From: an uncultured Ectothiorhodospiraceae bacterium
GTDB lineage: Bacteria; Pseudomonadota; Gammaproteobacteria; UBA6429; Thiohalophilaceae
Direction of reading: 5' to 3'
Assembly: GCA_947260005.1 (NCBI GenBank)
Contig: CAMYOL010000007.1
Location: forward strand, 175,574 to 239,573
DNA: 64,000 nucleotides
Below the pieces are notes generated by a model. It worked only from the letters and a program-made list of their open reading frames with translations, had not been told where the DNA came from and did not search any database. Below are positions 53,502-59,242 of this stretch, piece by piece. How positions within the stretch are numbered: position 1 is the stretch's first letter; each line of letters opens with the position of its first letter. The translations under genes and the position numbers were made by a program.

Positions 53502-54648
53502 AACCTAATTTCGCCAACAGCGTGATCTCTTTTGCTGATATTGAATCACTCGACACCTTATAAAAACTAAATTCTCGACGTTTAGGATAATTCTTTCGCA
53601 ACAAATCAAATTGAACTGATCGTAGTTCAGTATCTAACGACATGGTCTCAATTAACTTTTGACTGTCCGCTTCAATCGAGTAGGCCCCATTAAGCAACGA
53701 CCATAAACCTTGTACGTCGTCTATGGCATCGGCAGAATATTGCAGGATATTATTTTTTTCGTTATCGACTAAAACCGCCGCTGTATCCCAGCCTGGTTTG
53801 GTATTTAACTGCTTACATGCCGCCCGATAGATCATTTCCGTACCACGACATTTTCCATCAAACGAATAACCGGCGATATGGGGGGTCGAGATATTTGCTT
53901 TTGATACCAGGGTAGTATTGATTTCAGGTTCATTTTGCCAGACATCCAGAATCAAATTAATTTTTTTTGTTTCAAGTTGTTTTAATAATGCGGTTTCATC
54001 AACGGCACCACCACGCGATGTATTTATAAATAAACTATCCGTGGTTAATGCTGAAAAAAAATCAGAATCGAACATTCGCTTTGTTGGGTAATCACCTTCC
54101 GTCGTTAACGGCACGTGGGCAGTAATGACATTACAGGATTTTATTTTCTGCCAGTCTACATATTCCACATCGTCGTGTATTAAGGCCCTGGGTGGATCAT
54201 AGATAAAAGTCTTAATTCCTAATGCAGTTAATTTTTGTACGACACGGGATCCAACATTTCCATAACCCACAACACCAATTTTTAGCTCAGACAATGCTAA
54301 ATTATTCTGGCGTGCATGATTCAGCAAACCACACAGTACATACTCAGAGGCAGAAGTTGCATTACATCCAGGCGCATTTGCGAAAGGAATATTTCGGGAC
54401 GCCAGATAATCCAGATCAATATGATCGGTACCGATGGTAGCCGAGCCGACAAACTTAATTTTGCTACCCGCCAATAGTGACCCGTTGACTTTGGTCACCG
54501 AACGAACCATTAATACTTCGGCATCGGTGAGCTGCTGATTCTCTAGTTGGCGTCCATCAAACAAAACCACTTCTGCATCAGGTGACAGTGTTGAGAAGGC
54601 CTCGGTAGCAAAAGGAATATTCTGATCCGCAAATATTTTCATGTTCAT
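53485..54648 (-). CDS. pdxB: PdxB, erythronate-4-phosphate dehydrogenase
   Basis: 387 residues of the D-2-hydroxyacid dehydrogenase family with NAD motif GVVGYGNVGSRV and catalytic residues in NTSRGGAVDETAL (Arg), DVWQNEPEI (Glu) and TPHIAGYSFDGK (His), plus the PdxB-specific C-terminal domain. It acts in the DXP-dependent vitamin B6 pathway, which is typical of gammaproteobacteria. ATGs at 54648 and 54642 are both possible. Confidence 0.94.
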   Translation of the reverse strand: MNMKIFADQNIPFATEAFSTLSPDAEVVLFDGRQLENQQLTDAEVLMVRSVTKVNGSLLAGSKIKFVGSATIGTDHIDLDYLASRNIPFANAPGCNATSASEYVLCGLLNHARQNNLALSELKIGVVGYGNVGSRVVQKLTALGIKTFIYDPPRALIHDDVEYVDWQKIKSCNVITAHVPLTTEGDYPTKRMFDSDFFSALTTDSLFINTSRGGAVDETALLKQLETKKINLILDVWQNEPEINTTLVSKANISTPHIAGYSFDGKCRGTEMIYRAACKQLNTKPGWDTAAVLVDNEKNNILQYSADAIDDVQGLWSLLNGAYSIEADSQKLIETMSLDTELRSVQFDLLRKNYPKRREFSFYKVSSDSISAKEITLLAKLGFNMSL

Positions 54649-54790
54649 TTGGTAAAATAGTAAACAGCGGGGAATCTACCATGCTTGAATACGATAAGGA
54701 AATATTTGCTTAATAATCCAGGTAAAAACTTTCTAGCCTGGAATGATTATAGTTTAGATTGAACTTTGCACGGCATATCGATGACAGGGA

Positions 54791-55687
54791 TTAATATGGA
54801 CGATAACTGCGCGGTAAAATGGATTCCAACGCCTCACTGAATAAATTTCCAGCGTCATGGAATATTTCATCCATAACGGACGGATCAAGATTCGTCGTTT
54901 GCCAGGCGTAATCGGAAATTTCTCCCGTTTCACCATATAATTCTAATCCATTTTCTGCAATCAAGGTCATACCATTGGCGATGTGAATCAAACACACATC
55001 CATTATCGCCTCATCGGCTTCACTCGGTTGGTGATGATGGCGAACCGCCTCTTCCAGCGTCTTAGGCATTTGCCACACCTTTAATAATTCTCCGCCGACA
55101 TCGGTATGGTCGAAACCAAATACTTCGCGTTCGATCTCATAATCAGGTCTGTCTTCGGCCTTGCAGCGTTCGACAACGATTGCCATTTCATTCGGCATAC
55201 GGTGGCACAAAATGAGTTTGCCGATATCATGCAACATGCCTGCAACAAATAGACGTTCGCTGTGTAATACATGACAACGTTCAGCAAGCAATTGTGCAAC
55301 CACACCACAGTAGACACTGTGTCGCCAAAACTTGACCATATTCAGAATTTCATTAGGAATTTTTGAAAAGGCTTCGACCGCAGATGCCGCCAAAACCAAA
55401 CCACGCAATTCACGCAAGCCAATCACCGTGACCGCTCTTGAAACGGTCTCAATGCGTGAAGGAAAACCATAAAATGCACTGTTGACGATTTTTAATAATC
55501 GCGCGGTCAAACCAGTATCTTGCACAATCACTTTACCAATATCACTGGCATTTACCCGCACGTCTTCGAGCATTTCATTGACACGAATACACACCTCCGG
55601 CAAAGATACTAAACGAACCACTCCAGAGACTAAATCATAAGGTGTGGTTTTTACTTTCTTTGTCGTTTTGTTGCGGACTGACTGCAT
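54791..55687 (-). CDS. HDOD-domain signalling protein
   Basis: 298 residues from the ATG at 55687; an in-frame GTG at 55702 would add five. An HDOD domain covers most of the protein, with LPEVCIRVNEMLEDVRVNAS, TGLTARLLKIVNSAFYGFPS, FVAGMLHDIGKLILCHRMP (the HD pair) and EEAVRHHHQPSEAD. HDOD proteins are non-enzymatic or weakly characterised partners in stress and c-di-GMP-linked signalling. It lies next to an LRV protein and a REC-GGDEF regulator. Confidence 0.9.
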   Translation of the reverse strand: MQSVRNKTTKKVKTTPYDLVSGVVRLVSLPEVCIRVNEMLEDVRVNASDIGKVIVQDTGLTARLLKIVNSAFYGFPSRIETVSRAVTVIGLRELRGLVLAASAVEAFSKIPNEILNMVKFWRHSVYCGVVAQLLAERCHVLHSERLFVAGMLHDIGKLILCHRMPNEMAIVVERCKAEDRPDYEIEREVFGFDHTDVGGELLKVWQMPKTLEEAVRHHHQPSEADEAIMDVCLIHIANGMTLIAENGLELYGETGEISDYAWQTTNLDPSVMDEIFHDAGNLFSEALESILPRSYRPY

Positions 55688-55834
55688 GCGATTGATTCTC
55701 ACTTAACGCTATAATTAATATGGCTAAATAAATGTCCAGGCTGATTTATATAACGACAAATCAGTGTAGTTGCTTTAGAAGAGATCAGGCTTGCTGACTT
55801 GTTTATCTCATAAAAACGTCTGAATCAAATATGA

Positions 55835-56368
55835 TTATTTATCCATCATTTCGTCGCTAAGTCGTTGTAAACCAACGTGTGCAGCCTGGGCAACCTCAGG
55901 TTGCGAGTCCTTACTGAGGACTTCAAGTGTCTGTTTACTGGTATTAAGATTTTTGGCTACTTCAAAACGAATATCTGGATTCTTATCTGCGGATAAAACC
56001 GCCAGAGTGGCGCTGGGTACATATTCAAAGCGGGCCACGACACTGCGAACCTGCAAATCGGCATCGTTAGCCAGTTTTAAAAACGTCTTGTCGGCCGTTG
56101 CCAGATTAGTCGCAACCGCTATCCTGACCTGGGGATGTTTATCGCTCGCCAACACATCGAGCAATTCAATTGGAGACTTACGATTTCTGGCCAGGTATTG
56201 ACGGACCCGCCAGTCAGGATCCTTGCTAAGTTGCCACAACTGCTCAACCGGTGTTTGAGGATGACCGGCCTGACGTCGTCGCTGATCTTCAGACTCACTG
56301 GCATAGGAATTTGATAACAGGGTCACAAAACACAACATGAATACTATTTGAACACTATTTTTAATCAC
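55835..56368 (-). CDS. Exported leucine-rich-repeat-variant (LRV) protein
   Basis: About 177 residues from the GTG at 56368, chosen because AGAGG lies at the right distance and the protein then starts with a proper signal peptide (MIKNSVQIVFMLCFVTLLSNSYA). A frame open to 56404 would nearly touch the divergent gene. The mature part has four or five repeats of about 24 residues such as DPDWRVRQYLARNRKSPIEL and KHPQVRIAVATNLATADKTF (VR..VA.N..T...L..L..D), the LRV/HEAT-like pattern, which forms a solenoid for protein binding. Probably periplasmic. The partner is unknown. Confidence 0.8.
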   Translation of the reverse strand: MIKNSVQIVFMLCFVTLLSNSYASESEDQRRRQAGHPQTPVEQLWQLSKDPDWRVRQYLARNRKSPIELLDVLASDKHPQVRIAVATNLATADKTFLKLANDADLQVRSVVARFEYVPSATLAVLSADKNPDIRFEVAKNLNTSKQTLEVLSKDSQPEVAQAAHVGLQRLSDEMMDK

Positions 56369-56405
56369 AAAACCAACCTCTTTATCTATAATCTGGCAAC
56401 CCAAA

Positions 56406-57602
56406 ATGACAAATCTGACCGATGCGCTATTATTTAGAAATCAAACAATAAAAACAAACCTAAGCGTGCCAGATAAACCTATTCAACCCCGAATACTTGC
56501 CGTCGATGACTCTCGAGTCATGCGACTGGCTATGCGCAAAATTCTTGGCAAAGAATATGATGTCATCGAAGCCGAGCACGGTGAAGACGCCTGGACCCTG
56601 TTAATCAATGACAGCGCAATCCAGGTTTTGTTCACTGATCTGTCCATGCCTTATCTGGATGGCTATGCCCTGTTAGACCGAATGCGGGCAAGTGATGATC
56701 CACATTTACAAAATATGCCAGTCATTATTATCACCGGTAAAGAGGATGATGATGAAGCCAAGCAGCAGGCCCTGGATCACGGTGCCAGTGATTTTATTAG
56801 CAAACCATTTGAATCAATCCAGTTGCTGGCTCGAGCCAAGGCCCATGTCAGCTTCCAACAAACGACGACAAAACTAACCAGTACACAGGAAAAACTGGAA
56901 CGACAGGCCGCGGTTGATGAAGTTACCGGGTTAGCAGGACAACGTTATTTCTGTAAGGCGTCGGAAGAAAACCTCGCATATGCCAGCCGCCATGGCGGGC
57001 AATATATCCTGGTGCGCATGGATCTGGACAATTTTGACCACATCTTTATTAAAAATGGTAAAAAAGCGGCTGATGCAATCTTAAAAACCATTGGCACGCA
57101 ATTGCTCGGTATCGTTCGTAAAGAAGATATGCTTGCCCGGGTCGGTCTGGCGAAGTTCGCGATGTTATTACGTGACACACCGATGTCAAAAGCAAAGCAA
57201 ATGGCAAAACGAATCGCACATGAAGTTTCTAATTTGCGTTTTAAATTAAACGGCGATGCGGAAGTTAAAATCGAACTCAGCTTTGGGATCTATGAGCCCG
57301 ATATTTCCAAAGAATCCAATTTTGCTCTACAACTGGTTGCCGTGGAAGAGTATCTACAACAAGCAGCAGAACAGGATGGTAACCACTATGTAGCTTATTC
57401 TGCCGTTGCCGAGGCGGGAGAAGAACAAACTAATTTAGAAACTGCACTTAGTCACATCAAACTCAACGAATCCGAGATCCTTGAAAATCAGATTCACGGA
57501 TTAGCCAAACGCCTTTTTCCTTTACTTGAATTTATCGCCAAACATTTCGGTGAAGAGGCTATCGAGTTAGTCAATAAATTAAAAAACAAAATTCTCTCTT
57601 AA
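56406..57602 (+). CDS. Response regulator with degenerate GGDEF domain
   Basis: 398 residues: a receiver domain (about 28-150) with D34/D35, phosphorylated D78 in LFTDLSMPYLDG and K133 in SKPF, a short linker, and a GGDEF-fold domain (about 168-325). In place of GGDEF the sequence reads RVGLAKFAML (245-254), so diguanylate cyclase activity should be lost. The C-terminal 70 residues form a helical tail. Divergently transcribed from the exported LRV gene, with only about 37 bp between starts. Sensor kinase unknown. The start ATG at 56406 has a poor ribosome-binding site. Confidence 0.88.
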   Translation: MTNLTDALLFRNQTIKTNLSVPDKPIQPRILAVDDSRVMRLAMRKILGKEYDVIEAEHGEDAWTLLINDSAIQVLFTDLSMPYLDGYALLDRMRASDDPHLQNMPVIIITGKEDDDEAKQQALDHGASDFISKPFESIQLLARAKAHVSFQQTTTKLTSTQEKLERQAAVDEVTGLAGQRYFCKASEENLAYASRHGGQYILVRMDLDNFDHIFIKNGKKAADAILKTIGTQLLGIVRKEDMLARVGLAKFAMLLRDTPMSKAKQMAKRIAHEVSNLRFKLNGDAEVKIELSFGIYEPDISKESNFALQLVAVEEYLQQAAEQDGNHYVAYSAVAEAGEEQTNLETALSHIKLNESEILENQIHGLAKRLFPLLEFIAKHFGEEAIELVNKLKNKILS

Positions 57603-58105
57603 TCTGCTAGCCACAAACGAAAACGAAGCCCCCAGGGAGTGGTATAGCCTACTTCGCTCGCAACGATCTCGTTTTGACTATTTACGACAAAACTAGCTGG
57701 TACACCCGCAACACCATAACGTTGCACCCATGTCCCATCGATATCATTGATTACTTTAAAATCCAGATCATGTTCCTGCAAATAGGCTTTCACTTCATCA
57801 TCACTACCTGACTGCATCGCAATTGTCATGACATGGTAATCTTTACTCAAGGCATCAATACTATCTTGTTCCAACTTACAGATTCCACACCAACTTGCCC
57901 AAAAGTGGACGAGTACGGGTTTAGCTTCAGAAGCATGTAAACTAAAGGCCTGCTGTTCAATCGTGGTCGCCTGAATATCCGGTGCCTGGCCAGAGATCAT
58001 ATTGCGCTGCATATAGCCCCGTAAGGCCAGATAAAGCACAATAAAAAATAAAATTTCGAGCGTCCACTTAACCCAGCGCTTTTTAAAAAGTGTTTTAATA
58101 TTCAT
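57599..58105 (-). CDS. Membrane-anchored TlpA-like thioredoxin
   Basis: 168 residues: an N-terminal membrane helix (LEILFFIVLYLALRGYM) and a periplasmic thioredoxin domain with WCGIC (C73, C76). It would reduce or oxidise periplasmic thiols; the WCxxC with GI between the cysteines and the anchor are typical of TlpA/ResA/ScsD-like proteins. Its stop overlaps the response-regulator gene on the other strand by 4 bp. Confidence 0.9.
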   Translation of the reverse strand: MNIKTLFKKRWVKWTLEILFFIVLYLALRGYMQRNMISGQAPDIQATTIEQQAFSLHASEAKPVLVHFWASWCGICKLEQDSIDALSKDYHVMTIAMQSGSDDEVKAYLQEHDLDFKVINDIDGTWVQRYGVAGVPASFVVNSQNEIVASEVGYTTPWGLRFRLWLAD

Positions 58106-58147
58106 GATGCTTAGTTTGTTAAAGTAATTAAAAGTTTCATACTTGAC

Positions 58148-59242
58148 TTATTTTTTGTATGAAATTCTATAGATCACGCCTGCCCTATCATCGGAAATTA
58201 ACAATGAACCATCCGGTAAAGCTTTGATGTCGGTTGGCCTGCCCCATGCCGATTGGCCTTGCAACCAGCCTGTAGCAAAACTCTCATACGCAATCGCCCG
58301 ATTGTCTTTTAACTTAACCAGGGAAATTCGATAACCGGATTTTTTACTCCGGTTCCAGGAACCGTGTTCGGCAATAAACACTTGTCCATTATAAGCTTCC
58401 GGAAACATCGAACCTGAATAGCTATGCACTCCAAGTGATGCAACGTGTGCCCCTAAGTTTTGCACAGGAGAACTATAATCAGAACAAGATTTACCGTCAC
58501 CAAATTCCGGATCTAATACCGATTTACCATGGCAATAAGGGTATCCAAAATGTTGCCCCGTGTTAGTAACTCTATTCAATTCATCCGGTGGCATGTCATC
58601 CCCCATCATGTCGCGTCCATTATCGGTAAACCAAAGTTGCTTGGTGACAGGATGCCAGGTAAATCCAACACTGTTGCGTACACCATGGGCGACAACTTCA
58701 AAGCCACTTCCATCCAGGTTTAAACGGGCAATCTTTGCATAATCATCTTCATCACAAATATTATATGGGGCACCAATGGAGATATAAAGTTTATTATCCG
58801 GCCCGAGATTTAAATACCGCCAGCCATGATGAGCTTCAGTTGGTAATTCGTTATAAACAAGTTTAGCTTTTGGAGGGTTTGAAATTTTAGAGTCAATGTT
58901 TTCAAACTTAATGATACGATGCATCTCAGCAACATATAAATCACCCTGATGATAAACAAGACCATTTGGCATATTTAAATCACTGGCGATGATATACATT
59001 TGTTCAGCCTGATAATCACCATTTTTATCTATCAGTGCATACACATTACCTTCACTGCGCGTGCCAACATATAAGGTATCTTTACCATTCCAGGCCATGG
59101 AACGGGCGTTGGGAACCTGCTGGGCAAAAGTGGTAATAGAAAACCCGGCAGGCAGCTGTATGCCCTTTAAGGGAAGTTCTTCAGAATAAATATAAGGTGA
59201 ACAAAAGCAGGCGACAATTAACAGAAAAGTGTGCGATCTCAC
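58148..59242 (-). CDS. Secreted PQQ-type sugar dehydrogenase homologue (GSDH/sorbosone dehydrogenase-like)
   Basis: 364 residues with a signal peptide ([15 protein letters not shown]) and a six-bladed propeller: [72 protein letters not shown]. These match the glucose/sorbosone dehydrogenase family, soluble periplasmic enzymes; whether it binds PQQ is not provable by eye. The GTG start overlaps the fabB stop (GTGA), so it is translationally coupled to fatty-acid genes. Confidence 0.88.

Follow-up and report, generated by a model that had tools for sequence, protein, structure and literature searches.

A response regulator with a degenerate GGDEF domain and a conserved putative c-di-GMP-binding site, encoded beside HDOD and putatively exported LRV proteins

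A 64,000-nucleotide stretch of contig CAMYOL010000007.1 (175574-239573) from an uncultured Ectothiorhodospiraceae bacterium (hereafter, the window) encodes a response regulator (RR) in which a receiver domain (REC) is followed by a degenerate GGDEF domain. Comparison with its homologues suggests that RR resembles a cyclase but is enzymatically dead and serves as an effector of cyclic di-GMP (c-di-GMP), a reading that we hold to be slightly better than even. Best supported is that RR has lost its catalytic motif and kept its predicted messenger-binding site. RR lies together with genes for an HDOD protein and an exported LRV solenoid; an initial annotation had pointed to these three signalling-like genes, and all three are present where it had placed them, with their domains recognized by Pfam (Table 1). 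Comparison of gene neighbourhoods shows these genes together in other genomes too, though largely as a syntenic block within the order of the window. RR represents a widespread response-regulator subfamily, devoid of the catalytic motif and with the predicted messenger-binding site kept, on which our searches found no study, and its neighbourhood supplies candidate partners: HDOD, exported LRV and, in relatives, an exported DUF302 protein.

Loss of the catalytic motif and conservation of the I-site

For the regulator, 75 non-redundant rows were drawn from 165 open reading frames at E below 1e-70, with near-identical cores removed. An additional alignment (A1) comprises the window sequence plus 23 of the 29 RR loci of relatives, with L003, L004, L014, L015, L024 and L028 left out. 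The receiver is complete, with the phospho-acceptor Asp and the conserved Lys each present in 75/75 homologues. The GGDEF signature of the window reads GLAKF, as the initial annotation had stated, and all 35 rows of the order follow G(L/V)(A/S)(K/R)F. An intact GG(D/E)EF is seen in 1/75 homologues (GGEEF in L200), and two others come near to it (GGGEF in L106 and GADEF in L196). At the D/E370 position, 46 of the 75 have Ala and 15 have Ser; at the E371 position, 57 have Lys or Arg.

When the RR profile is aligned to PleD, the RR motif columns land on the I-site (the predicted messenger-binding site) and the A-site (the catalytic motif) of that protein. The I-site, an RxxD motif five residues ahead of the signature, keeps both its Arg and its Asp in 75/75 homologues; of its two inner residues, one is variable (K 21, Q 15, R 8, N 6, and others) and the other is Glu in 70/75. 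Two further positions can be compared with N335 and R390 of PleD, which we take to be the guanine-binding Asn and the secondary I-site Arg, respectively. The former is Phe or Tyr in 64/75 homologues, including 35/35 rows of the order, and the latter is kept as Arg in 70/75 overall and in 35/35 rows of the order. It had been proposed initially that RR signals by protein contact or by binding c-di-GMP or guanosine triphosphate (GTP), and not by synthesis. Contact or c-di-GMP binding still appears likely, and GTP is less favoured because the I-site Arg and Asp are invariant while the guanine-binding Asn is mostly replaced.

The fold of the GGDEF domain is intact: Foldseek matches it to the GGDEF domain of DgcB with c-di-GMP (6tts_A, TMt 0.90, root-mean-square deviation 1.4). 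The AlphaFold2 (AF2) model of full-length RR (predicted local distance difference test, pLDDT, 83.5; predicted template modelling score, pTM, 0.48) contains a helical C-terminal extension of ~70 residues.

The messenger itself should be made in the cell, since 34 of the 42 GGDEF domains in the window genome (G000, 3.7 Mb) keep an intact GG(D/E)EF in the alignment. RxxD is present at the I-site in 38 of these 42 domains, comprising 33/34 canonical and 5/8 non-canonical ones. RR is among the latter five, whose signatures are GLAKF, DKNEF, SGDTF, AGDEF and GRDEF; the three non-canonical domains that lack RxxD read EGPVF, GADQF and GGDEY. Consequently, the RxxD of RR taken by itself says little, and the weight of the effector argument is in the strict conservation of the I-site together with the lost A-site.

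Orthologues of RR are found in 35 of the 40 genomes of the order (E <= 1e-30). Of 369 genomes sampled across the class, 54 have a match (E <= 1e-75), four of them from the window's own family; this search scored at most 5 candidates per genome, and some may be missed.

Comparison with known c-di-GMP proteins

In view of its motifs, RR most likely belongs with the known degenerate I-site effectors. Bd3125/CdgA of Bdellovibrio bacteriovorus has GVNEF with RxxD, shows no cyclase activity and binds c-di-GMP with a dissociation constant of ~2 uM, according to passages of its report (PMC3271064). Like RR, it joins a degenerate GGDEF to an RxxD five residues upstream, although c-di-GMP binding by RR is predicted only. 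The two proteins are likened by motif, and the role of CdgA, prey entry, sets it apart. PleD, DgcR and WspR are the best PDB matches and share with RR the receiver and GGDEF arrangement, the fold and the I-site; all three keep the motif intact and are cyclases, whereas RR lacks the motif and has its C-terminal helical extension. In DgcR, c-di-GMP at the RxxD site cross-links domains, as passages of PMC8041772 describe.

As for the HDOD protein, SadB of Pseudomonas fluorescens has the same domain, binds c-di-GMP and works in a c-di-GMP pathway, according to passages of PMC6543031. SadB carries an extra YbaK-like domain, and a Pfam scan found none in the window protein. In addition, EAL-HDOD proteins and candidate degenerate effectors are mentioned in Acidithiobacillus, with no such cluster in the passages concerned (PMC6416229).

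In the open-access literature searched, no description of an HDOD-LRV/DUF302-RR neighbourhood was found, which agrees with the initial impression that this combination is not a described system. The same searches found nothing joining DUF302 with HDOD or Thiohalophilus with c-di-GMP; among the matches listed, nothing relevant on LRV in the periplasm was seen, and the pairing of GLAKF with GGDEF was absent. To our knowledge, none of the HDOD, LRV and DUF302 families has a settled function, so that a recurring neighbourhood provides a foothold.

Gene layout and start sites

The Pfam scan of the window covered five proteins (54791-59242), among which there is neither a histidine kinase gene beside RR nor a transmembrane receptor. 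The RR and thioredoxin genes share 4 bp at their ends on opposite strands (57599-57602).

Table 1. Features of the RR locus (positions in the window).
Feature	Position	Strand	Details
HDOD-domain cytoplasmic signalling protein	54791..55702	-	303 aa from GTG; ATG five codons in; PF08668 E 6e-67
Exported LRV solenoid protein	55835..56368	-	177 aa, GTG start; PF01816 E 2e-14 (scan run from 56371)
Divergent intergenic region, LRV/RR	56369..56465	.	97 bp, taking GTG 56466 as the RR start
RR: REC, coiled-coil, degenerate GGDEF (GLAKF) with I-site RKED, helical C-terminal extension (~70 aa)	56466..57602	+	PF00072 E 5e-24; PF00990 E 4e-24
RR I-site and degenerate A-site, RKEDMLARVGLAKF	57117..57158	+	Sequence; alignment column counts
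TlpA/ResA-like thioredoxin, convergent with RR	57599..58105	-	PF00578 E 6e-16

The divergent starts of LRV and RR had been placed about 37 bp apart, a figure that rested on an RR start at ATG 56406. The two closest relatives, L003 and L004, which are of the same genus (88 and 83% identical), carry a TAA at codon 13 of that frame; their RR N-termini, VSEKTTQPRIL and VSEKTTQLRIL, correspond to GTG 56466 of the window. This makes GTG 56466 the probable start of RR. For LRV, the most likely start is GTG 56368, as in L033 and L034, and with both starts predicted in this way the gap is probably ~97 bp. A promoter and terminator scan of 54600-58250 gave no excess, with 8 promoter-like sites against 8.2 expected.

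The HDOD protein

The HDOD domain scores 225.3 bits (gathering threshold 22.9), and all 20 rows of alignment A6 (which omits L115, L117, L118 and L124 and adds L202, L205 and L206) share its HD-type ligands H128, H158-D159, H199 and H223-H224. The window genome has 12 HDOD domains in all. A close homologue of this protein occurs in 34/40 genomes of the order (E <= 1e-90) and lies within 3 kb of RR in 31/35 RR-bearing ones, the others being G014, G021, G037 and G038. In family f132, RR stands tail to tail with another, larger HDOD protein in three genomes (L166 2889-4673, L168 5819-7492 and L174 5887-7569); of two such proteins scanned, one has a GAF match over the cut-off and the other has one under it.

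The exported LRV and DUF302 proteins

The LRV match scores 53.4 bits (gathering threshold 21.6). In the AF2 model (pLDDT 95.2), the best Foldseek match in the PDB is 1lrv (E 1.2e-4), followed by HEAT-type scaffolds, and the protein therefore looks like a protein-binding solenoid. 1lrv presumably comes from Azotobacter, whose LRV protein holds a 4Fe-4S Cys cluster. Both proteins belong to the same Pfam family; unlike the Azotobacter protein, that of the window looks exported and lacks the Cys set for such a cluster. Its sole Cys sits in the hydrophobic N-terminus, so it should be unable to hold one. Export, already suggested in the initial annotation, is indicated by a signal-peptide-like N-terminus in the window and many relatives, judged by eye and not by a predictor.

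Homologues of LRV occur in 25/40 genomes of the order and 21/369 of the class. Among the 35 order genomes that carry RR, 23 have LRV divergent to it. The locus set retrieved by LRV comprises 33 relatives' loci, including that of Thiohalophilus thiocyanatoxydans (NCBI order Thiohalomonadales, Gammaproteobacteria), and five weaker matches, L056-L060, are omitted from the LRV alignment (A2). LRV was rejected as an obligate partner of RR: 12 of the 35 RR genomes have no LRV beside RR, and LRV occurs without a nearby RR match in L130, L132, L133, L136, L143, L146 and family f132. These absences and separations, together with the synteny described below, weaken the initial idea that LRV may sense the periplasm, at least as a sensor feeding RR, as does the lack of a transmembrane receptor among the five scanned neighbours.

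In relatives without LRV, and in some with it, the LRV slot is occupied by a second protein, predicted to be exported and matched by Pfam to DUF302. This match (PF03625) passes the 23-bit cut-off in one of four proteins scanned (27.6; the others score 21.9, 21.2 and 15.4), and the 16 aligned proteins form one family with two invariant Cys (alignment A4, which omits L122 and L124). No match was obtained at E <= 1e-20 in the genus of the window (G000, G030, G031 and G032), and for this reason the initial annotation could not see DUF302. The family is present in 59/369 genomes of the class and in 16/40 of the order; 15 of these 16 have it beside RR, and the remaining one, G002, yielded no RR. The 35 RR genomes of the order thus divide into 19 with LRV only, 11 with DUF302 only, four with both and one (G007) with neither, that is, 34/35 have one or both divergent to RR. 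Of the three outgroup rows, from family f36, two have both proteins and the third has LRV only. LRV and DUF302 each change four times on a tree of 38 RRs, too few for a test of alternation.

According to passages of PMC5037610, a DUF302 protein of sox clusters lies between soxA and soxB and is taken by the authors of that work to be periplasmic. The DUF302 gene of the relatives described here adjoins RR and HDOD instead. PMC6193735 was rejected as a source on DUF302, its matches being to DUF3021.

Linkage and inherited synteny

Adjacency within the order was compared with that of the surrounding genes in 20 order regions of 12-20 kb. AmtB, MazG, PdxB, FabA, FabB, LpxA, YihY, ExbB/ExbD and TypA are names assigned by eye from sequence, without a search. 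FabB and FabA accompany RR in 20 of the 20 regions, LpxA in 19, HDOD in 17, AmtB, MazG and thioredoxin in 15 each, LRV in 14, DUF302 in 8, a PQQ-type protein in 4 and PdxB in 3; the thioredoxin is directly beside RR in 14 regions and 8.9 kb off in one more. Much of the same block is also found in L178, L134, L187 and L128. Because the whole block is conserved, adjacency inside the order proves little, and it was rejected as proof of function after this control.

Linkage after a change of flanks is seen in two rearranged contexts, with RR in only one of them. In G322/bin408 (L165 and L124; family f36), RR, DUF302, LRV and HDOD are retained without the rest of the block and have ExbB/ExbD-like flanks; HDOD is partly masked there, and one small gene lies between. 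In family f132, HDOD, a YihY-like protein and LRV, plus DUF302 in 2/3 genomes, are found with other flanks, and neither RR nor the remainder of the block accompanies them. Elsewhere, the linkage is that of the syntenic block. In G307 (family f2; L173 271-2971), RR and LRV lie on the same strand ~1 kb apart, with an opposite-strand gene between them, and in G040, which has the same genus code, they are on different contigs. RR, LRV and DUF302 are each found elsewhere without the others, and neither LRV nor HDOD was found near DUF302 in the stretches fetched at 20 loci of other families.

Interpretation

If RR is a c-di-GMP effector, its REC domain would be phosphorylated by an unlinked histidine kinase and its I-site would be filled by c-di-GMP from the other cyclases of the cell, both inputs jointly setting its dimer state. 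RR might then act by contacting another protein with either its GGDEF surface or its helical C-terminal extension. Judging from gene neighbourhood alone, the likeliest contact would be the HDOD protein, and a link between RR and HDOD is plausible. As the scanned neighbours offer no signal carrier from a soluble periplasmic protein to RR, the exported LRV (and, in relatives, DUF302) is less likely to be a sensor for RR than an envelope product that is co-inherited and possibly co-regulated. No mechanistic link between the exported proteins and RR was found.

Several observations weigh against RR as an effector with HDOD as its contact. As noted, RxxD is common among the GGDEF domains of this genome, so that its presence in RR is weak evidence. 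Because a profile of degenerate members was used to collect the 75 homologues, the set is biased toward both a degenerate A-site and a kept I-site. Nearby columns outside the I-site Arg and Asp are conserved as well (the inner Glu in 70/75 and F372 in 69/75), and the domain arrangement is uninformative because the pTM of the full-length model is only 0.48. The closeness of HDOD to RR inside the order is confounded by synteny. G037 and G038 carry RR and LRV, yet have no HDOD match at E <= 1e-90. In addition, 30 RR loci lie in other families (L165-L200 minus f36 and f132, that is, outside f1, f36 and f132). In the stretches fetched, some of them short, 28 of these show none of HDOD, LRV and DUF302; the exceptions are L173, with LRV, and L186, with HDOD 3 kb away.

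It is scarcely credible that RR retains a weak or altered catalysis, such as low cyclase activity or synthesis of another dinucleotide. Some degenerate motifs are active, for instance the AGDEF of VCA0965 according to PMC3974145, but GLAKF has lost both acidic signature residues, and in every row of the order Phe or Tyr stands in place of the guanine-binding Asn. More serious, though still unlikely in our judgement, is that unrelated genes have simply been kept together in a rarely rearranged region. FabB and FabA (20/20), LpxA (19/20) and AmtB and MazG (15/20 each) belong to the same block, the block recurs in f36 loci, and RR, LRV and DUF302 all have other contexts. Against this, HDOD, LRV and DUF302 stay together in the two contexts where no other block gene was found, and the PdxB (3/20) and PQQ-type (4/20) neighbours turned over while HDOD stayed (17/20).

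Those rearranged contexts would also suit a true envelope-signalling module, in which exported DUF302 or LRV, with the TlpA-like thioredoxin, senses or handles a periplasmic thiol or sulfur compound and is read by the cytoplasmic HDOD protein and RR. The sox-cluster DUF302 of sulfur oxidisers (passages of PMC5037610) and the thioredoxin neighbour are a hint of thiol or sulfur chemistry for the exported proteins, and the two invariant Cys of DUF302, the nearness of RR and LRV in G307 and the divergent LRV or DUF302 gene of 34/35 RR genomes point the same way as the module would. This module nevertheless appears doubtful: no transmembrane receptor is found among the scanned neighbours, the whole block is syntenic in the order, neither LRV nor HDOD was matched in the stretches fetched at the 20 DUF302 loci of other families, LRV stands beside HU-like proteins elsewhere, G040 separates LRV from RR, and four changes each of LRV and DUF302 on the tree are too few to test it. 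Still more improbable is the full version, an undescribed envelope-to-c-di-GMP circuit of the order and its relatives, in which interchangeable exported DUF302 and LRV would report periplasmic thiol or sulfur status, and HDOD with a phospho-gated I-site receptor bearing a dead GGDEF would give a c-di-GMP-dependent output.

Other gene contexts

Further neighbours were seen at other loci. In other families, a TypA/BipA-like translation GTPase gene lies beside the RR-family regulator in L169, L179, L183, L186 and L195, 5 of 11 loci viewed by eye. In other clades (L130, L132, L133, L136, L143 and L146), LRV is beside HU-like DNA-binding and DsbD_2/TauE-like membrane proteins (one of each scanned, the rest assigned by eye), and a divergent LRV homologue (L214 3523-4218) lies amid genes that by eye resemble copper-handling ones, encoding a metal P-type ATPase, a multicopper oxidase and a YHS-like protein. 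Finally, in L250 and L262, from two further families, an exported DUF302 gene is divergent to that of a GGDEF-like protein (E 1e-16 and 4e-20 against the RR profile), possibly by chance.

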